Assembly (NCBI RefSeq): GCF_003115775.1
Contig: NZ_QEES01000002.1
Coordinates: 1 to 64,000 of the forward strand
Reading direction: 5' to 3'
DNA: 64,000 nucleotides
Source: Cellulomonas sp. WB94
GTDB lineage: Bacteria > Actinomycetota > Actinomycetes > Actinomycetales > Cellulomonadaceae
Below are positions 54,148-64,000 of the stretch, in pieces. The position numbers and the translations under genes are program-made. How positions within the stretch are numbered: position 1 is the first letter of the stretch; every line of letters starts with the position of its first letter. The notes under the pieces are model-generated. The model was given only the letters and a program-made list of their open reading frames with translations. It was not told the origin of the DNA and made no database searches.

Positions 54148-54939
54148 TCAGGCGCGAGCGACCATCGTGTTCGACACCTGGGCACGCGGCCGGATCACGA
54201 GCAGGTCGACGTTGACGTGGTGCGGCCGCGACAGCACCCAGGCGATCGCGTCGGCGACGTCCTCGGCCACCAGCGGTCCACCGACGACCCCCTCGTAGAC
54301 GGCGTCGGCCCGCGCCTGGTCGCCGCCGAACCTCGTCACGCTGAACTCGTCGGTGCGGACCATCCCCGGAGCGATCTCGAGGACGCGCACCGGCTCGCCG
54401 ACGAGCTCGAGGCGAAGCGTCGTCGCGATCTGACGCTCCGCATGCTTCGCCGCGACGTAGCCACCGCCCCCCGGGTACGTGTCGTGCGCCGCGGTCGAGC
54501 TGAGCACCAGAACGTCGCCACGGCCGCTCGCGCGCAGGGCCGGGAGCAGTGCCTGGGTGACCCGCAGGGTGCCGAGCACGTTGATCTCGTACATCTGACG
54601 CCACTGGTCGAGCGAGCCGGTCGCGACGGGGTCCTGGCCGAAGGCGCCGCCCGCGTTGTTGACGAGCGCATGCACCGGTCCGCCCGCGACGACCTCGCGC
54701 GCCAGCCGTGCGACGTCGTCGTCGGACGTCAGGTCGGCAACGATCGCCTCCGCACCCGTCTCGGCCGCGAGCGCCGCCAGCCGGTCCGCGCGCCGCGCCA
54801 CCGCCACGACCGCCCAGCCGTCGGCGCGCAGCCGTCGCACCGTCGCCGCGCCGATGCCCGACGACGCGCCGGTCACGACGGCTCGCAGCCCCGTGCCCGG
54901 GTCGCCGATGACTGTGGGTGTGCTGGCTGGTGTGCTCAT
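54148..54939 (-). CDS. Short-chain dehydrogenase/reductase, copy 1
   Basis: Classical NAD(P)-dependent SDR, 263 residues. The cofactor motif is TGASSGIG, NNAG is in ALVNNAGGAFG, and the catalytic residues are a Ser at 147-148, Tyr161 and Lys165 (YVAAKHAER). The sequence resembles the YdfG-like serine/3-hydroxy-acid dehydrogenase group (INVLGTLRVTQALLPALRAS, VRVLEIAPGMVRTDEFSVTR). It is a close paralogue of the SDR at 56756-57526. It diverges from the GGDEF gene. Confidence 0.9.
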   Translation of the reverse strand: MSTPASTPTVIGDPGTGLRAVVTGASSGIGAATVRRLRADGWAVVAVARRADRLAALAAETGAEAIVADLTSDDDVARLAREVVAGGPVHALVNNAGGAFGQDPVATGSLDQWRQMYEINVLGTLRVTQALLPALRASGRGDVLVLSSTAAHDTYPGGGGYVAAKHAERQIATTLRLELVGEPVRVLEIAPGMVRTDEFSVTRFGGDQARADAVYEGVVGGPLVAEDVADAIAWVLSRPHHVNVDLLVIRPRAQVSNTMVARA

Positions 54940-56755: not shown

Positions 56756-57526
56756 CTACGCTCGCCCGGCGGCCGCCGGTCGTCGGCCGATCTGGGTGTT
56801 CGAGACCTGGGCGCGCGGCCGGACGACGAGCGTGTCGATGTTCACGTGGTGCGGACGCGTGAGCGCGAAAGCGATGACGTCCGCGACGTCGTCGGCCACG
56901 AGCGGCTCGTAGCCCTCGTAGACCTTCGCGGCCCGCTCGGCGTCGCCGGCGAACCGGACGAGCGCGAACTCCTCCGTCGCGACGTTCCCCGGCGCGATGT
57001 CGATGACGCGCACCGGCTCCCCGATGAGCTCGAGGCGCAGCGTCGTCGTCAGCATCCGCTCGGCGTGCTTGACACCCGTGTACCCGGCGCCGCCCTCGTA
57101 CGGGGCGATGCCGGCGGTCGAGGTCACCACGAGGACGTCGCCGCGACCGCTCGCGCGCAGCGCCGGCAGGAGCGCCTGCGTGACGCGCAGGGTGCCGAGC
57201 ACGTTCGTCTCGTACATCGCGCGCCAGCCGTCGACGTCGGCCTGCTCGACCCGGTCGAGCCCGAGCGCGCCGCCGGCGTTGTTGACCAGCGACGTCAGCC
57301 CCCCGGTGTCGTCGATGAACGCCGCGAGCCGCGCGACGTCGTCGTCGGACGTCAGGTCGGCCGCGAACGCCTCAGCGCCGGTCTCGGCGGCCAGCGCCTC
57401 GAGACGGTCCGCGCGCCGCGCGACGGCCACGACGGCCCACCCGTCGGCGCGAAGCCGACGCACCGTGGCCGCGCCGATGCCGCTCGAGGCCCCGGTCACG
57501 ACGGCGCGCAGCCGACCGGCGGTCAC
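56756..57526 (-). CDS. Short-chain dehydrogenase/reductase, copy 2
   Basis: SDR of 256 residues starting at the GTG that overlaps the aminotransferase stop (GTGA). TGASSGIG, SLVNNAGGALG, the catalytic Tyr-Lys pair in YTGVKHAER and DIAPGNVATEEFALVRF are present. Large parts match copy 1, for instance GIGAATVRRLRADGWAVVAV is identical. Coupling to the aminotransferase suggests that it reduces the aldehyde or keto product of transamination, for example malonic semialdehyde to a hydroxy acid. This is inference from context. Confidence 0.9.
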   Translation of the reverse strand: MTAGRLRAVVTGASSGIGAATVRRLRADGWAVVAVARRADRLEALAAETGAEAFAADLTSDDDVARLAAFIDDTGGLTSLVNNAGGALGLDRVEQADVDGWRAMYETNVLGTLRVTQALLPALRASGRGDVLVVTSTAGIAPYEGGAGYTGVKHAERMLTTTLRLELIGEPVRVIDIAPGNVATEEFALVRFAGDAERAAKVYEGYEPLVADDVADVIAFALTRPHHVNIDTLVVRPRAQVSNTQIGRRPAAAGRA

Positions 57527-58845
57527 AGGGCACCGCCCACGACCGCGAGGGCCTCGTCGTAGATCGCGAGCGCCGTGCTCACCTGGTCGTCCGTGACGAT
57601 GCACGGCGGCACGACGTGGATGCGGTTGTCCGCGAGGAACGGCAGCAGGCCGCGCGCCATGAGCTCGCTCTTGACCTGGGACATCGCGCGGGCCGGCAGC
57701 GGCGCGCGCGTCGAGCGGTCGCTCACGAGCTCGAGCGCCCAGAAGACTCCGCGCCCCCGCACCTCGCCGATGACCTCGTGCCGCTCGGCCAGCTCCGCCA
57801 GGCCCGGTCCGAGCACGTCCGCGCCGATCCGGGCGGCGTTCTCGACGACGTGCTCGTCCTCCATCGCACCGATGGTCGCGACGATCGCCGCCATCGCGAG
57901 CGGGTGCCCCGAGTAGGTCAGGCCGCCGGGGAACACGCGGTCGTCGAACGCCGCCGCGATCGGGTCGGAGATGATGACGCCGCCCGCCGGCACGTACCCG
58001 GAGTTGACGCCCTTCGCGAAGGTGATGAGGTCCGGGACGACGCCGTCGTGGTCGAACGCGAACCACTCCCCGGTCCGCCCGAACCCGGCCATCACCTCGT
58101 CGAGGATCAGCAGCACGCCGTACCGGTCGGCGATCGCCCGGACGCCCGCGAGGTACCCCGGCGGCGGGACCAGGACACCAGCCGTCCCGACGATCGTCTC
58201 GATGAGGATCGCCGCGACGGACGACGGCCCCTCGGACTGCAGGACGCGCTCGAGGTGGACGAGCGCGCGCTCGCACTCCTGCTCGGGCGTGGTCGCCCAG
58301 AACTCGCTGCGGTACAGGTACGGGCCGAACACATGGACGTGGCCGCGCGCGTACTCGTTCGGGATCCGCCGCCAGTCGCCCGTCGCGACGACGGCCGAGC
58401 CGGTGTTGCCGTGGTACGAGCGGTAGAACGAGATCACCTTGTCGCGGCCGGTCACCTGGCGCGCCATCCGGATCGCGTTCTCGTTGGCGTCCGCGCCGCC
58501 GTTCGTGAAGAAGACCTTGGAGAACCCGGCGGGCGCATGCGCGACGATCGCCGCGGCCGCCTGACCCCGCGGGAGCACCGCATGGCCCGGGGCCACGGTC
58601 GTCAGCACCTGGGCCTGCGCCGCGATCGCCGCGACGACCCGCGGGTGCTGGTGGCCGATGTTCGTGTTGACCAGCTGGCTCGAGAAGTCCAGCAGCGTGC
58701 GCCCGTCCGCCGTCTGGACCTCGCACCCTGCCGCGCCCGTGATGACGATGGGGTCGAGGGTGCGCTGGGCGGACCAGGAGTGGAACACGTGGGCGCGGTC
58801 GAGCTCGTGCGCGAGCCGTCCGGCGTCGTCGAGCGGTGCGGTCAT
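57523..58845 (-). CDS. Class III (omega-type) aminotransferase
   Basis: PLP enzyme of fold type I, subgroup II, 440 residues. PLP contacts are NGGADANENAIRMARQVTGR, the Asp in LLILDEVMAGFGRTGEW (Asp249) and the Schiff-base lysine Lys278 in ITFAKGVNSGYVPAGGV. The group includes beta-alanine:pyruvate and omega-amino-acid transaminases. Beta-alanine is the end product of reductive pyrimidine degradation, which fits the hydantoinase upstream. A strong terminator lies between it and the ABC operon. GAGAGGC stands before the ATG. Confidence 0.92.
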   Translation of the reverse strand: MTAPLDDAGRLAHELDRAHVFHSWSAQRTLDPIVITGAAGCEVQTADGRTLLDFSSQLVNTNIGHQHPRVVAAIAAQAQVLTTVAPGHAVLPRGQAAAAIVAHAPAGFSKVFFTNGGADANENAIRMARQVTGRDKVISFYRSYHGNTGSAVVATGDWRRIPNEYARGHVHVFGPYLYRSEFWATTPEQECERALVHLERVLQSEGPSSVAAILIETIVGTAGVLVPPPGYLAGVRAIADRYGVLLILDEVMAGFGRTGEWFAFDHDGVVPDLITFAKGVNSGYVPAGGVIISDPIAAAFDDRVFPGGLTYSGHPLAMAAIVATIGAMEDEHVVENAARIGADVLGPGLAELAERHEVIGEVRGRGVFWALELVSDRSTRAPLPARAMSQVKSELMARGLLPFLADNRIHVVPPCIVTDDQVSTALAIYDEALAVVGGAL

Positions 58846-58881
58846 GCCTCTCGCCTCTTTCTCGGGTGGTGCCCGGACCCG

Positions 58882-58922
58882 CCGGGGTCGACGCCGCTGC
58901 GGTGCGGCGGCGCCGACCCCGG
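58882..58922 (-). terminator. Terminator hairpin after the ABC operon
   Basis: The outer arms CCGGGGTCG (58882-58890) and CGACCCCGG (58914-58922) and an inner stem around CGCCGC/GCGGCG make a nearly continuous stem of about 17 bp with one mismatch. It lies 42 bp after the substrate-binding-protein gene and 37 bp before the aminotransferase ATG. Confidence 0.7.
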
Positions 58923-58963
58923 TCAGGTGCCCGCGTGGTGCGGGTCCTGCGGTGCTGGCGTGG

Positions 58964-60142
58964 TCAGCTGCCGCCGGCCGCGAGGGTCACGGTGAGCGGC
59001 GCGAACGTCGTGCCCGTCACGTCGACCCCCTCGGCGGTGAGCTCCGCGAGCGCCTTCGTCACATACTCGTTGGTGTGCGCCTCGGCGTCCGGCTCCTTGG
59101 TGATGACACTCGCACCCTGGTCGTTCTTGGTCGTCAGGGCCACGTCGACCGTCTGCTTCCAGGCGGCCTCGTCGATCATGCCGATGCCGGCTTTGGACGG
59201 CCAGATGAGCTTGTTGACCTCGTTCGTCTGCCACAGCTGGTGGCTGTTGCCCAGCTGGGAGCCGGCGGCCACGACGGCGTCACGGGCGGCCTCCGGGTTG
59301 TCGCGGGCGTAGATCCAGCCCTCGAGGCTCGCCTTGATGAACTTCACGGTCGTGTCCTGGTACGCCTTGTCCGAGCTCAGCTTCTCGGTGTTCGCCCAGA
59401 TGGCGTCCTGGAGCATCGCCGTGCCCTCGGTGTTCCAGTCGATCACCGAGAAGTCGGACGGCTGGTACAGCGCACCCGTCGCCGGGTTCGTGGCCTCGAG
59501 GACCTGGGCGAACTCGTTGTAGGTCATCGCCTGGGCCGCGTCGATCTCACCGGAGAGCAGCGCGTTCATGTCGAACTGCTGCTGGACGAGCGTCACGTCC
59601 GTGGCCGGGTCGAGCCCCGCCTTGGTCATGCCCGCGAACAGCTCGAACTCGTTGCCGTAGCCCCAGTTGCCGACCTTCTTGCCCTTGAGGTCGGCCGCCG
59701 TCGTGATGCCGCTGCCGGCGAGGGCGACCTGCAGGGTGCCCGATCGCTGGAAGATCTGCGCGACGTCGGTGATCCCGGCGCCCTGCTCGCGTGAGGCGAG
59801 CGCCTTGGGCACCCACGCGATCGCGTAGTCGACCGAGCCGTCGGCCAGGACGGTCTGCGGCACGATGTCCACGCCGCCCTCGACGATCGTCACGTCGAGG
59901 CCCTCGGCCTTGTAGAAGCCCTGCTCGAGGGCCGCGTAGTAGCCGGCGAACTGCGCCTGCGTGAACCACTGCAGCTGGAGCCTGACCGGGGTGAGCGCGG
60001 CTGTCGTCGCGGCCGCCGTCGCGCCGGCCGTCCCCGTGGCCGCCGACTCGGTCGCGCTGCTGCTGCTGCACCCGGTGAGAGCGAGCGCCGCGGCAACGCC
60101 GACGGCGGCTGCGCCCCATCCGGTACGCCTGGTGAGTCTCAT
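58964..60142 (-). CDS. ABC importer substrate-binding lipoprotein, NMT1/THI5-like
   Basis: Lipoprotein of 392 residues: a signal peptide ending in the lipobox LALTGC, a Ser/Ala/Thr linker, then an NMT1-like periplasmic-binding domain ([54 protein letters not shown]). This family binds pyrimidine-like (thiamine precursor), riboflavin or sulfonate ligands. The ATG at 60142 has AGAGGG at correct distance; an ATG two codons earlier is too close to it. It is the last gene of the ABC operon. Confidence 0.92.
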
Positions 60143-60213
60143 CGTCATCCCTCTTCTCGGTGGGTGGTGATCGGCCGACCTGGCAGCACCGGCAGGCGGA
60201 CGTGGGTGGAGGG

Positions 60214-60981
60214 TCAGCGACCCTGGCGGCGCGCGACGACGCGTTCGAGCGCGAGCGTCGCGAGGTAGAAGACGAGACCCAGGGCGATCGCCCCGAGCAC
60301 GTAGGCCCAGGCCCGGGCATAGGCGCTGTTGGACGCGGCCGCGGTGATCCGCGACCCGAGACCGTTCTGCAGCCCGCCGAAGTACTCGGCGACGACCGCG
60401 GAGATGACGGCGGTCGACGAGGCGATGCGCAGTCCCGTGAACAGGAACGGCAGCGAGCCAGGGATCGTGAGCACGCGTGCCGTCTGACGGGGTGTCGCGG
60501 CGTAGGCGCGCAGGAGGTCGCGGTGCACCGGCTGGACCTCGCGCAGACCCCGCAGCATGTTGACGAACACGGGCACGAACACCACGACCGCGACGATCAT
60601 GCGGCGCGGGGTCGTGGACGTCGTCCCGAACATCGTGTTGAGCGCGGGGGCGAGCGCGACGATCGGCATGACCGAGACGGCCGCGGCCGTCGGGGACATC
60701 AGCGCGTCGATCCACCGGGCGCGCGTCGCGGCGATCGCCGCTCCGATCGCCACGACGGTCCCGACGACGAGCCCGACGAGCACGTTGGAGCCGGTCGCCA
60801 CAGCGGCGGTCCAGATCAGCGGTGCGAGCGCACCCGCCTGCGCGGCGATCGCCGTCGGGCTGGGCAGCAGGTACGGCTTGATGCCCGCGCCGACGACGAG
60901 CGCCTGCCAGCCGGCCAGCACGACCGACCCGAGGACGAGCGGCGGGAGCCAGGACCGGGCAGTGCGCGCGACGGCGGTCAT
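60214..60981 (-). CDS. ABC importer permease, second
   Basis: Permease of the SsuC/TauC (BPD_transp_1) type, 255 residues with six helices. The ATPase-contact EAA-like loop lies around [20 protein letters not shown]. The ATG overlaps the ATPase stop. It is one of two different permeases in this importer, suggesting a heterodimeric channel as in some riboflavin- or pyrimidine-type NMT1 systems. Confidence 0.92.
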
Positions 60982-61868
60982 CGGGCGTCCACGCCGCGCG
61001 GCATCGGGGTCGTCGCCGGTCCGTCCGCGGGGACCCGGTCGCCGTGGCCCTCGTGCAGGGCCTCGCGCACCGCGGTCACCGCGGCGAAGAACGAGGCGTC
61101 CTCGCGCAGCTCCTCGGAGCGCTCGGCGCCGCCGGTCAGGGTGATGGGCACGACCTGCCGGATGCGTCCCGGCCGCGGGGACATCACGACGACACGGTCG
61201 GAGAGGAAGACCGCCTCGGGGATCGAGTGCGTGACGAACACGACGGCGGCCTGGCTCTCCTGGCAGATCCGCACGAGCTCGGTCTGCATGCGCTCACGCG
61301 TCATCTCGTCGAGCGCCCCGAACGGCTCGTCCATGAGCAGCAGGCTCGGCTGCTCGGCGAGCGCGCGGGCGATCGCGACGCGCTGCTGCATGCCGCCGGA
61401 CAGCTGGTGGGGGAAGTGCCCGGCGAAGTCGGCCAGCCCGACGAGCTCGAGCAGCTCGGCCGCCCGTGCCGCCCTGCCTGCGCGACCGACCCCGTGCAGC
61501 TCGAGCGGCAGCTCGATGTTGGCGCGCACGGTCCGCCACGGGAGCAGCCCTGCCTGCTGGAACGCGATGCCGTAGTCCTGGTTCTCGCGGGCGACACGCG
61601 GCGCCTTGCCGAAGATCGACAGCTCCCCGGACGTCGGGGCGTCCAGGTCGGCGACGAGGCGCAGGAGCGTGGACTTGCCGCACCCGGACGGACCGATGAG
61701 GGACACGAACTCCCCCGGCGCGATGGTCAGGGAGACGTTCTCGAGCGCGGTGACCTCACCCGCCCTCGTGCGGAACACCTTGCCGACGCCGCGCGCCTCC
61801 ACGGCCGGGGTCAGGCCTGTCGGGCGTGGGGTGGCCGGCACCGTGCCGGTGGGGACCTGCGTGCTCAT
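60978..61868 (-). CDS. ABC importer ATPase
   Basis: SsuB/TauB-type ATP-binding subunit, 296 residues. Walker A is [17 protein letters not shown], the Q-loop is in [16 protein letters not shown], the signature [17 protein letters not shown] and Walker [17 protein letters not shown]. The switch histidine is in [18 protein letters not shown]. It overlaps both permease genes by ATGA, so the four subunits are made in one translational chain. Confidence 0.95.
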
Positions 61869-62761
61869 GAGACCTCCGCGATGCGGTAGCGGCCCAGCCC
61901 GAGGCCGAGCAGGGTGACGAGCCCGGCGGCGACGAGCCCCAGGGCCCCGGCCGCCACGATGGCGGCCCAGGGCTTCGCGGGGTCGCCGCTCGCCGCCTGG
62001 GCGTAGGCGATGATGAGGCGGCCGATGCCGCCCTTGGTGCCGGTCGACACCTCGGCGACGACGGCGCCGACGACGGCCGTGGCGGCGCCGAGCCGCAGCG
62101 CGGGCAGCACGTACGGGACGCTCGCCGGCAGCCGCAGCGACCTGAAAGTGCGCCAGGGGCTCGCGGCCTGCGCCCGGAACAGCTCGACGTGCGCCTGCTG
62201 CGGCGACTGGAGCCCGCGCAGGGCGCCGACCGCGACGGGGAAGAACGCGAGGTACGACGCGATCAGCGCGACCGACATCCAGCGCTCCCACACCAGGTCG
62301 CCGAGGTGGATCTTGCCGCCCCAGCCGACGACCAGCGGCGCGAGGGCGATGAGCGGGACCGTCTGGCTCAGGACGACCCAGGGGTAGACCGCAGACTCGG
62401 CGATCCGCGAGCCGTGCATGAGCACGGCGAGCGCGAACCCGCCCACGACCCCGGCGAGCCAGCCCGCGACCGAGACGCGCAGCGTGAACCAGCACGCCTG
62501 GAGCATCGCGACGCCGACGCTCGGGGAGCCGGCCGCCGAGCTCTCGGGCGTCGCCATCCGCGCGACGACGTCCCACACGTGCGGCATCGACCGGGCGTCG
62601 GCCCGTGGCAGCACGCTCGCGCCGAAGAGGTGGGCGCCGGTGTCGGGGCCGACGAGCTTGTAGAGCTCCCACAGCGCGCACGCGACGACGAGCGCGGCGA
62701 CGCCGACTCCCCCGCGGCGCAGCGGTGCCACCCAGCGCGCCGGGCCCGGCCGCGTGGTCAT
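61865..62761 (-). CDS. ABC importer permease, first
   Basis: Permease of 298 residues with six or seven helices; the EAA loop region is VELFRAQAASPWRTFRSLRL. An extracytoplasmic segment of some 50 residues follows the first helix, longer than in the other permease. It starts in an ATGA overlap with the LLM oxidoreductase stop and ends in one with the ATPase start. Confidence 0.9.
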   Translation of the reverse strand: MTTRPGPARWVAPLRRGGVGVAALVVACALWELYKLVGPDTGAHLFGASVLPRADARSMPHVWDVVARMATPESSAAGSPSVGVAMLQACWFTLRVSVAGWLAGVVGGFALAVLMHGSRIAESAVYPWVVLSQTVPLIALAPLVVGWGGKIHLGDLVWERWMSVALIASYLAFFPVAVGALRGLQSPQQAHVELFRAQAASPWRTFRSLRLPASVPYVLPALRLGAATAVVGAVVAEVSTGTKGGIGRLIIAYAQAASGDPAKPWAAIVAAGALGLVAAGLVTLLGLGLGRYRIAEVS

Positions 62762-63789
62762 GCGGTCGCCACGACGGTCTCGGCCATCGCCGGGATGACC
62801 CGCTCGCCGTAGGCCCGGAGCGTCTCCTCCTTGTTGTCGTGCTGGAGGTACCCCGCGAACTGCGTCACGCCCAGCTCGCGGAGCGCCTGCAGCTTCTCGA
62901 CGTGCTCGCGCGGGCTTCCCAGCAGGCAGAACCGTTCGACGATCTCGTCGGGCACGAAGTCCGCGTGCGTGTTCCCCGCGCGGCCGTGCTGGTTGTAGTC
63001 GTAGCCCTGGCGGTCCTGGATGTAGGCGGTGAGCGCCTTCGGCACCGTCGAGCCCTCGCCGTACTTCGTGACGATGTCGGCGACGTGGTTGCCGACCATC
63101 CCGCCGAACCACCGGCACTGCTCGCGCATGTGGGCGCGCTCGGCGGGCGACTCCCCGTTGCCGACGTACATGGGCGCGGCGACGCAGAACTTCACCGCGT
63201 CGGGGTCCCGGCCGGCCTTCTCGGCCGCGTCGCGCACCGCCTTGATCATCCAGGCCGCGATGTCGGGGTCGGCGAGCTGCAGGATGAAGCCGTCCCCGAC
63301 CTCACCCGTGAGCTTGAGCGCGAGCGGACCGTACGCCGCGACCCACACCTCGAGGGCGGACCCCTTGCTCCACGGGAAGCGCAGCGTGCGGTCGTTGACC
63401 GTGACCTCGCGGTCGTTCGCGAGCTCGCGGATGACGTGGATCGACTCGCGCAGGGTCGCGAGGTTCGACGGCCGCCCGTTGAGGGTACGGACCGCCGAGT
63501 CGCCGCGACCGATGCCGCACACCGTCCGGTTGCCGTACATCTCGTTGAGCGTCGCGAACAGCGAGGCGAGCACCGTCCAGTCCCGCGTCGCGGGGTTGGT
63601 GACCATGGGCCCGACCATGATCTTGCGGGTCGCGGCGAGGATCGCCGAGTAGATGACGAACGGCTCCTGCCACAGCAGGTGCGAGTCGAAGGTCCACACG
63701 TAGTCGAAGCCGTGCGTCTCGGCCTGGCGCGCCAGGTCGACCGTGCGCGAGGCGGGGGGGTTCGTCTGCAGGACGACGCCGAAGTCCAT
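62758..63789 (-). CDS. LLM-class flavin/F420-dependent oxidoreductase
   Basis: Luciferase-like TIM-barrel oxidoreductase of 343 residues (MDFGVVLQTNPPASRTVDLA). It contains DYVWTFDSHLLWQEPFVIYS, MVGPMVTNPATRDWTVLASL and the cofactor-phosphate region CGIGRGDSAVRTLNGRPSN. It looks like the putative F420-dependent subfamily that I recall as often neighbouring hydantoinases. The cofactor (F420 or FMN) and reaction are unproven. The start is 12 bp after the hydantoinase stop and the stop overlaps the permease, so it belongs to the catabolic operon. A dihydropyrimidine-forming or ring-oxidising role is the inferred possibility. Confidence 0.88.
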   Translation of the reverse strand: MDFGVVLQTNPPASRTVDLARQAETHGFDYVWTFDSHLLWQEPFVIYSAILAATRKIMVGPMVTNPATRDWTVLASLFATLNEMYGNRTVCGIGRGDSAVRTLNGRPSNLATLRESIHVIRELANDREVTVNDRTLRFPWSKGSALEVWVAAYGPLALKLTGEVGDGFILQLADPDIAAWMIKAVRDAAEKAGRDPDAVKFCVAAPMYVGNGESPAERAHMREQCRWFGGMVGNHVADIVTKYGEGSTVPKALTAYIQDRQGYDYNQHGRAGNTHADFVPDEIVERFCLLGSPREHVEKLQALRELGVTQFAGYLQHDNKEETLRAYGERVIPAMAETVVATA

Positions 63790-63801
63790 GATGTCTCCCG
63801 G

Positions 63802-64000
63802 TCAGATGAGGTACTGGGACAGCTCGCGCTTGATGTACCGGCCGTGACCGGCACGGCCGTGGAACGTCCCGTCGTCGACGACGACCGAGCCGCGCGAGAG
63901 GACGGTGTCGACGTGCCCGTCGATCTCGAAGCCCTCCCAGGCGGAGTAGTCCATGTTCATGTGGTGGGTCTTGCCGAGGCCGATCGACGTGTGCCCGTTC
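63802..64000 (-). CDS. Hydantoinase/dihydropyrimidinase, C-terminal fragment
   Basis: The reading frame is open to the edge of the window; the last 65 residues are visible. They read NGHTSIGLGKTHHMNMDYSA, then WEGFEIDGHVDTVLSRGSVV and end GRYIKRELSQYLI. The HMNxDYSxWEG pattern and the terminal GHGRYIKR match the cyclic amidohydrolase family of dihydropyrimidinase and D-hydantoinase, which opens dihydrouracil or hydantoin rings to N-carbamoyl amino acids. Metal ligands lie outside the window. It is upstream in the same operon as the LLM oxidoreductase and the ABC importer. Confidence 0.9.
   Translation of the reverse strand, partial: NGHTSIGLGKTHHMNMDYSAWEGFEIDGHVDTVLSRGSVVVDDGTFHGRAGHGRYIKRELSQYLI

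Follow-up and report, generated by a model that had tools for sequence, protein, structure and literature searches.

In the reductive catabolism of pyrimidines, the dihydropyrimidine dehydrogenase PreT-PreA (PydA) is followed by a dihydropyrimidinase (PydB) and a beta-ureidopropionase-type amidase (PydC), and the substrate is taken up by an ATP-binding cassette (ABC) system of the NMT1 type or by an NCS1 importer. An extended Pyd pathway, reportedly described by Yin et al. in 2019, continues past beta-alanine with PydD and PydE, an aminotransferase and a reductase. RutA, an enzyme of the luciferase-like monooxygenase (LLM) fold, also acts on uracil and opens its ring oxidatively. Here we analyze a locus at the end of a stretch of 64,000 nucleotides (the window) from Cellulomonas sp. 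WB94 (contig NZ_QEES01000002.1, positions 1 to 64,000), in which an LLM oxidoreductase is encoded next to a dihydropyrimidinase (HydA), a four-subunit NMT1-type ABC importer, a class III aminotransferase and a short-chain dehydrogenase/reductase (SDR). The locus shares with the PreT-PreA pathway the dihydropyrimidinase, the probable type of amidase and the importer, and with the extended pathway the aminotransferase and the reductase, which are assigned here from homology alone. It differs from both in the first enzyme, for which the unrelated, F420-type LLM protein is the candidate, PreA and PreT not having been found at LLM loci. Based on sequence comparisons, we consider it highly probable that the LLM protein is an F420H2-dependent dihydropyrimidine dehydrogenase that replaces PreTA in reductive pyrimidine catabolism.

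Several published systems are related to this proposal. The ferredoxin-dependent PydA of Clostridium takes the electrons for the first step from yet another donor (PMC7332683); it differs in being a PydA homologue, none of which was found in the host genome. In the reductive uric acid pathway of Chloroflexota, a putative F420 LLM protein was proposed to reduce the purine ring (PMC12507026), and common to both cases is a putative F420 LLM enzyme that stands ahead of a cyclic amidohydrolase, there in place of YgfK/UacX, whereas the ring is a purine. SSGG-03002/NpsU, a putative F420/FMN (flavin mononucleotide) oxidoreductase, is genetically required for the reduction of the uracil C5=C6 bond in an antibiotic, the in vitro assay of the authors having given no product, so that the case is one of genetics only (PMC10714638); it shares with our candidate the proposed target bond and differs in serving antibiotic tailoring. 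For the reductive uracil pathway of Mycobacterium smegmatis, the genes had not all been identified in a 2015 study (PMC4617892), and a review regards the role of F420 as minor or niche-specific in Paracoccus denitrificans and Oligotropha, two species with measured traces (PMC8498797). Among the literature matches listed, in a coverage without preprints and most subscription journals, we found neither a description of an F420-dependent dihydropyrimidine dehydrogenase nor a text pairing "F420-dependent" with "dihydropyrimidinase", which is no proof of novelty. Such an enzyme is not mentioned in the available parts of PMC6279831, PMC7332683 and PMC7142369, and those of PMC8305020, PMC10117117, PMC8844931 and PMC4959651 hold both kinds of term in unrelated contexts.

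The first enzyme

A PreA profile search of the host genome (3.87 Mb, rated 99.6% complete) reached no more than 22.5 bits, where the cut-off is 335, and the Pfam family DHO_dh gave a single strong match, the quinone-dependent PyrD, besides two weak partial matches of 20 bits. A hidden PreA or ferredoxin-type PydA was rejected on these results. Likewise, a Rut pathway was discarded, since RutA, which has the LLM fold and uracil in common with the present case but differs in its oxidative ring opening, is matched at 61.4 bits, below the cut-off of 498.3. By these searches, the host encodes the reductive pathway from its second step on, the gene for that step being broken in the assembly, but no known uracil-reducing enzyme. 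The classical dihydropyrimidine dehydrogenase elsewhere in the genome, which a preliminary description of the window had named among the findings that would count against its idea of an LLM replacement, was thus not encountered.

The LLM protein scores above the curated cut-off of 295.45 for TIGR03842 (F420_CPS_4043; Table 1), which answers the suggestion of the same description that it be compared with the TIGRFAM LLM subfamilies. With a profile built from 14 sequences, the best solved relatives were the F420-dependent methylenetetrahydromethanopterin reductases, Mer (172.6 bits; bacterial luciferases at most 56), and Mer structures, both with and without F420, also ranked first against an AlphaFold model of moderate quality (mean pLDDT 76.6). 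The motifs GP-VTNP and GIG-GD are common to both proteins; Mer nevertheless forms a separate family model, TIGR03555, which the host protein matches at 126.6 bits, under the cut-off of 348.7.

The hydrolases

The two pieces of the host dihydropyrimidinase, searched separately against TIGR02033, scored 429.5 bits (C-terminal) and 110.4 bits (N-terminal), and the family is over its cut-off. The host amidase matches CN_hydrolase with 224 bits; compared with individual enzymes it reaches 195 and 184 bits with the beta-ureidopropionases of Drosophila and human, 197.5 bits with N-carbamoylputrescine amidase and at most 110 bits with D-carbamoylases. We regard it as a candidate ureidopropionase-type enzyme of the nitrilase superfamily. 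It was found by extending the sequence past position 64,000, where the preliminary description had suggested looking for an N-carbamoyl-beta-alanine amidase. In Leisingera the amidase is an M20 enzyme, with 631 bits to a solved N-carbamoyl-beta-alanine amidohydrolase.

These scores bear on a different function for the operon, the degradation of hydantoins or another cyclic ureide. HydA would then be a D-hydantoinase and the nitrilase would hydrolyze N-carbamoyl amino acids, leaving to the LLM protein a modification of the ring or of a side group. Opening hydantoin requires no redox enzyme, while the LLM protein is a constant member of these loci, and the nitrilase is nearer to beta-ureidopropionases than to D-carbamoylases, the value for N-carbamoylputrescine amidase notwithstanding. 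In favor of a hydantoin substrate, the solved proteins most similar to the intact HydA of locus L013 mostly bear the name D-hydantoinase, an activity that dihydropyrimidinases share. HydA also stands beside N-carbamoyl-D-amino acid hydrolases on two other plasmids, but both of these loci are without an LLM gene within 7 kb, and PreT-PreA operons encode close homologues of the importer, the M20 enzyme and HydA. On balance we find a hydantoin pathway unlikely; its plain form, a hydantoin-to-amino-acid operon, was rejected on the nitrilase scores and the D-carbamoylase plasmid loci.

Conservation of the LLM locus

The proposed dihydropyrimidine dehydrogenase was followed through 396 genomes drawn from the phylum of the host, other phyla lying outside the survey and Proteobacteria being represented by plasmid records only. 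TIGR03842 occurs in 79 of these genomes and dihydropyrimidinase, over its cut-off, in 114. The count of co-occurrence that had been called for is clear: dihydropyrimidinase is present in 72/79 genomes with the LLM gene vs 42/317 without it (Fisher p ~1.8e-40, uncorrected for relatedness), which puts the arrangement beyond chance. In 60 of the 79 the two genes are at most 15 kb apart, 57 of these pairs being on the same strand.

Seventy-nine sampled LLM loci (the host and 78 others; 3.4-20 kb, 52 of them at least 15 kb) were compared by blastp with reference proteins. HydA was found at 61 and the aminotransferase at 51; the nitrilase was seen at 41 and the M20 amidase at 29, with both at one locus, and NCS1 at 35 and the NMT1 binding protein at 21, never together. 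No PreA or PreT was matched at these loci, although absences on the short pieces mean little given this range of lengths. A second set, the 80 named loci kept as the best 80 of 566 relatives of the LLM protein and therefore leaning to close kin (the nearest being from Actinotalea and Cellulomonas), contains HydA at 79, always in an uninterrupted frame 440 or more residues long, the nitrilase at 77, the binding protein at 65, a relative of the MocR-type regulator at 59, and no PreA or PreT. From these counts, LLM and HydA form a constant core, whereas the amidase beside them belongs to either of two unrelated types, and so does the importer. On a tree of LLM proteins (alignment-based trimming, 90 of 91 rows, L197 left out) the amidase partner has switched at least two times. 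A consistent tie of the homologues to some unrelated substrate, the other outcome that the preliminary description had foreseen as adverse, was not seen: the genes that go with them encode dihydropyrimidinase and ureidopropionase-type amidases.

Cofactor and F420 genes

The co-occurrence with F420 genes, also proposed for counting, points the same way, cofD being present in 73/79 genomes with the LLM gene vs 140/317 without it (p 2e-16). A cofH match was obtained in 67 of the 79, over the cut-off in 61, and at 26 of the 80 named loci no more than 10 kb separates cofD from the LLM gene, under 7/26 genus-level labels (two labels are not genus names). From the kinship with Mer and this linkage of cof genes, the cofactor leans strongly to F420, which narrows the earlier alternative "F420 or FMN". 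That the same reduction proceeds with FMN is, in our view, very unlikely. The LLM superfamily includes FMN enzymes, and 6/79 genomes with the LLM gene are without a cofD match and 12/79 without a cofH match; however, two of the latter, G225 and G268, both rated 100% complete, have a putative F420-0 importer, the cof genes stand immediately before the LLM gene in Leisingera and Paracoccus, and the nearest solved relatives and the cofD count given above are those expected of an F420 enzyme.

In the host, cofD and cofE are located 7-10 kb from the LLM gene and adjoin the putative F420-0 importer cassette (L008:11839-17616, contig 67839-73616; L008 is the host locus). Two importer subunits (TIGR03868/69/73) are over their cut-offs, with 465.9 and 520.1 bits, and the ATPase, at 364.5, is slightly below 372.4. 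An FGD-family LLM gene lies beside cofE, and the npdG match is weak. FO synthase (CofH/FbiC, TIGR03551) had no match in the host genome at E 0.001. Importer genes over the cut-off occur in 3 of the 79 genomes (G000, G225 and G268), all without a CofH match, and were not found over the cut-off in the other nine genomes without such a match. The family name and the missing FO-synthase gene suggest import of FO or F420-0 and, as the host combines no FO-synthase match with a putative importer, its pathway may depend on salvaged cofactor.

Plasmid loci and exchange with PreT-PreA

Twelve plasmid records contain the LLM gene (E 1e-50), ten from Leisingera, one from Paracoccus and one from Streptomyces. 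In Paracoccus alcaliphilus and in two Leisingera records (two of the ten were opened) it directly follows cofGHDCE and npdG. On the divergent side of both Leisingera records are pntAB, the aminotransferase, the M20 amidase, HydA and an NCS1 nucleobase symporter, and past the LLM gene is a RutR-like regulator, another trait in common with the PreT-PreA pathway. HydA and the nitrilase adjoin the LLM gene in the Streptomyces record.

Eight other proteobacterial HydA plasmid loci were opened with 7-kb flanks, of 220 records with a match, and four of them are PreT-PreA operons (Qingshengfaniella, Roseinatronobacter, Azospirillum and Burkholderia). The M20 amidase and HydA of Leisingera are 74% identical to their counterparts in the Qingshengfaniella operon, and the host binding protein is 37-40% identical to those beside HydA in Qingshengfaniella, Roseinatronobacter, Thalassospira and Sinorhizobium meliloti, the first two belonging to PreT-PreA operons. 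From these identities and that of the host ATPase (Table 1), largely the same supporting genes accompany either PreT-PreA or the LLM gene. This exchange, together with the negative PreA searches and the association of the loci, gives the proposals that the LLM protein replaces the dehydrogenase and that the importer supplies the base firmer ground than the window itself could, both still being presumptive.

The same plasmids speak to the idea that the LLM protein serves a later step, oxidizing for instance malonic semialdehyde or 3-hydroxypropionate and reducing F420, while an unrecognized enzyme reduces uracil. Several LLM enzymes, such as FGD and Adf, do oxidize their substrates while reducing F420. 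In Leisingera, however, the partners of the LLM gene are npdG, for an NADPH-F420 reductase, and transhydrogenase genes, which fits production of F420H2, and it remains with HydA while amidase and importer vary; from the neighbors compared with reference proteins, we hold a downstream role to be very improbable.

Proposed pathway and points against it

In the pathway that we hypothesize, with the LLM protein as dihydropyrimidine dehydrogenase, the NMT1-type ABC system would import uracil and/or thymine, and the TIGR03842 enzyme would reduce the C5=C6 bond with F420H2 as hydride donor, hydride to C6 and proton to C5 being the expected route, yielding the dihydropyrimidine. Dihydropyrimidinase would then open the ring, the nitrilase-type amidase would free CO2, ammonia and beta-alanine, and the aminotransferase and SDR, judging from homology, would convert beta-alanine to malonic semialdehyde and this to 3-hydroxypropionate. 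F420H2 could be regenerated from NADPH by NpdG in Leisingera and Paracoccus, whereas actinobacteria could employ F420-reducing dehydrogenases. As a hydride donor F420H2 has a low potential and is used reductively by Mer and, since NADPH suffices in the known enzymes, it should suffice for uracil reduction.

For soil bacteria that lack the usual gene, the proposal supplies a candidate for the enzyme that begins a textbook pathway. If true, it would give F420 a new role, one in primary metabolism in some Alphaproteobacteria, and predictions that seek just PreA/PydA would overlook that such bacteria use pyrimidines. A broader hypothesis, to which we give belief and doubt in equal measure, is that a wide range of actinobacteria, and some roseobacters that make F420, ordinarily begin pyrimidine catabolism with F420H2-dependent reduction of uracil/thymine, the F420 genes of the roseobacters mainly serving this step, and that strains without FO synthase but with a putative importer depend for growth on pyrimidines on the deazaflavin of their neighbors, F420 precursors being a shared vitamin.

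Several observations, besides the genomes without cofD or cofH matches, weigh against the proposed function. The substrate (uracil, thymine or both) and the direction of the reaction are deduced from neighboring genes. The host dihydropyrimidinase is split over two overlapping frames (contig 63802-65219, L008:7802-9219), with the break just outside the window, which may be an assembly error or a recent loss. In 7/79 genomes with the LLM gene no HydA is over the cut-off, and 8/79 LLM loci have neither HydA nor an amidase, seven being pieces under 12 kb and the eighth, G045, having HydA 50 kb off. PreA (E 1e-60) is so rare in the phylum (3/396 genomes, none with the LLM gene) that the mutual exclusion there weighs little. 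As a control, the HydA loci of 40 of the 42 genomes with HydA and without LLM were opened, the remaining two being G208 and G218 (the latter not fetched). Three of the 40 (L216, L217 and L218) have an amidase at the HydA locus and neither LLM nor PreA was seen there: L216 is a 6-kb piece of a 79%-complete metagenome-assembled genome with M20, aminotransferase and NCS1; L217 gives matches of 34-35% identity, Pfam confirming an M20 enzyme, a CN hydrolase and an NMT1 importer; and L218, with a nitrilase 66% identical and no LLM in its 20 kb, may be a true exception or a gap. The actinobacterial locus of G208 (L210) is a classical PreT-PreA-M20-HydA group without LLM.

Further points of this kind come from the plasmids. 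That PreA and PreT are missing from the Leisingera stretches holds for the plasmids, the chromosomes of Leisingera and Paracoccus not having been searched for PreA. In Paracoccus an ABC importer follows the LLM gene, the 25 kb shown there carry no HydA annotation, and its LLM-side binding protein is only 25-27% identical to the four alphaproteobacterial ones from HydA loci. Two of the eight proteobacterial HydA loci, from Aminobacter (L259) and Sulfitobacter (L260), have D-carbamoylases with neither LLM nor PreA seen, and two more, from Thalassospira (L256) and S. meliloti (L261), have an amidase with neither gene within 7 kb. Finally, cofH is found in 60 plasmid records vs 12 for LLM, cof genes also occurring without TIGR03842, so the F420 genes on most plasmids must have another purpose.

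Organization of the locus

The genes, order and strand are as first described. On the minus strand, the amidase and dihydropyrimidinase genes are followed by those for LLM, permease, ATPase, permease and binding protein, then, past a hairpin spacer, by the aminotransferase and SDR genes (Table 1). The preliminary description had all of the hydrolase, LLM and importer genes chained by overlaps or a 12-bp gap; this holds from dihydropyrimidinase to the second permease, with 12 bp between dihydropyrimidinase and LLM and 4-bp overlaps joining the next four genes, but not for the binding-protein gene, which begins 65 bp past permease 2. The terminator placed before the aminotransferase gene was not borne out, since the strong hairpin of the spacer is not followed by a T run and a scan of the operon found neither promoter nor terminator. 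The coupling of the aminotransferase and SDR genes was recovered as a 4-bp overlap, given the GTG start of the SDR at 57526 read off the sequence. Among solved structures, the closest relative of the aminotransferase is taurine:2-oxoglutarate aminotransferase (343 bits), and the six matches of the binding protein in PDB include the formylaminopyrimidine-binding protein and THI5.

Table 1. Features of the LLM locus of Cellulomonas sp. WB94; positions refer to the window unless marked as contig.
Feature	Position	Strand	Remarks
Dihydropyrimidinase (HydA/PydB), C-terminal part, ~65 residues in window	63802..64000	-	Rest runs to ~65219 of contig
TIGR03842-family LLM oxidoreductase, proposed F420H2-dependent dihydropyrimidine dehydrogenase	62758..63789	-	TIGR03842, 595.2 bits
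ABC permease 1 of pyrimidine-type importer	61865..62761	-	SaoP/TauC/SsuC-like matches, all below cut-off
ABC ATP-binding subunit	60978..61868	-	52% identity to ATPase of Qingshengfaniella PreT-PreA operon
ABC permease 2	60214..60981	-	Profile match and gene spacing
NMT1/THI5 substrate-binding protein	58964..60148	-	PF09084, 129.5 bits
Spacer, 118 nt, strong hairpin without T run	58846..58963	-	Whole-spacer fold -69.6 kcal/mol
Class III aminotransferase, probably beta-alanine type (PydD-like)	57523..58845	-	PRK06062, 733.5 bits, cut-off 472
SDR, probably malonic semialdehyde reductase (YdfG/PydE-like)	56756..57526	-	YdfG, 174 bits, best NCBIfam match, below cut-off 411
Second SDR, paralogous to the one above and perhaps also part of the system	54148..54939	-	72.7% identity over 245 residues
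Nitrilase-family amidase, beyond window	contig 65251-66099	-	Upstream of dihydropyrimidinase
GntR-aminotransferase (MocR) type regulator, beyond window	contig 66272-67681	divergent	

The two SDR paralogues stand either side of a convergent gene that, judging from a motif, may encode a GGDEF-domain protein.

Related gene groups

Some of the loci opened hold other combinations of similar genes. L217, without LLM, has two amidohydrolases, and among nine open reading frames scanned there the sole redox gene is an acyl-CoA dehydrogenase. In L235 an ABC importer, a Mer-like LLM (not TIGR03842), a dihydropyrimidinase, SsnA and a transhydrogenase are grouped, and a genome of this phylum thus likely degrades uric acid reductively with F420; L234 shows similar LLM, HydA and transhydrogenase matches. 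On pSymA of S. meliloti (L255), F420 biosynthesis genes lie with a TIGR03619 LLM, an ArgE/DapE deacylase, a CoA-transferase, a transhydrogenase and a xanthine dehydrogenase family gene, a putative further F420 catabolic island. Plasmid 3 of Variovorax sp. PBL-E5 (L254) carries a cof operon, npdG, an LLM gene whose product is 34% identical to that of the host, an amidohydrolase and a carbon-nitrogen hydrolase, perhaps for a related ring-opening pathway.

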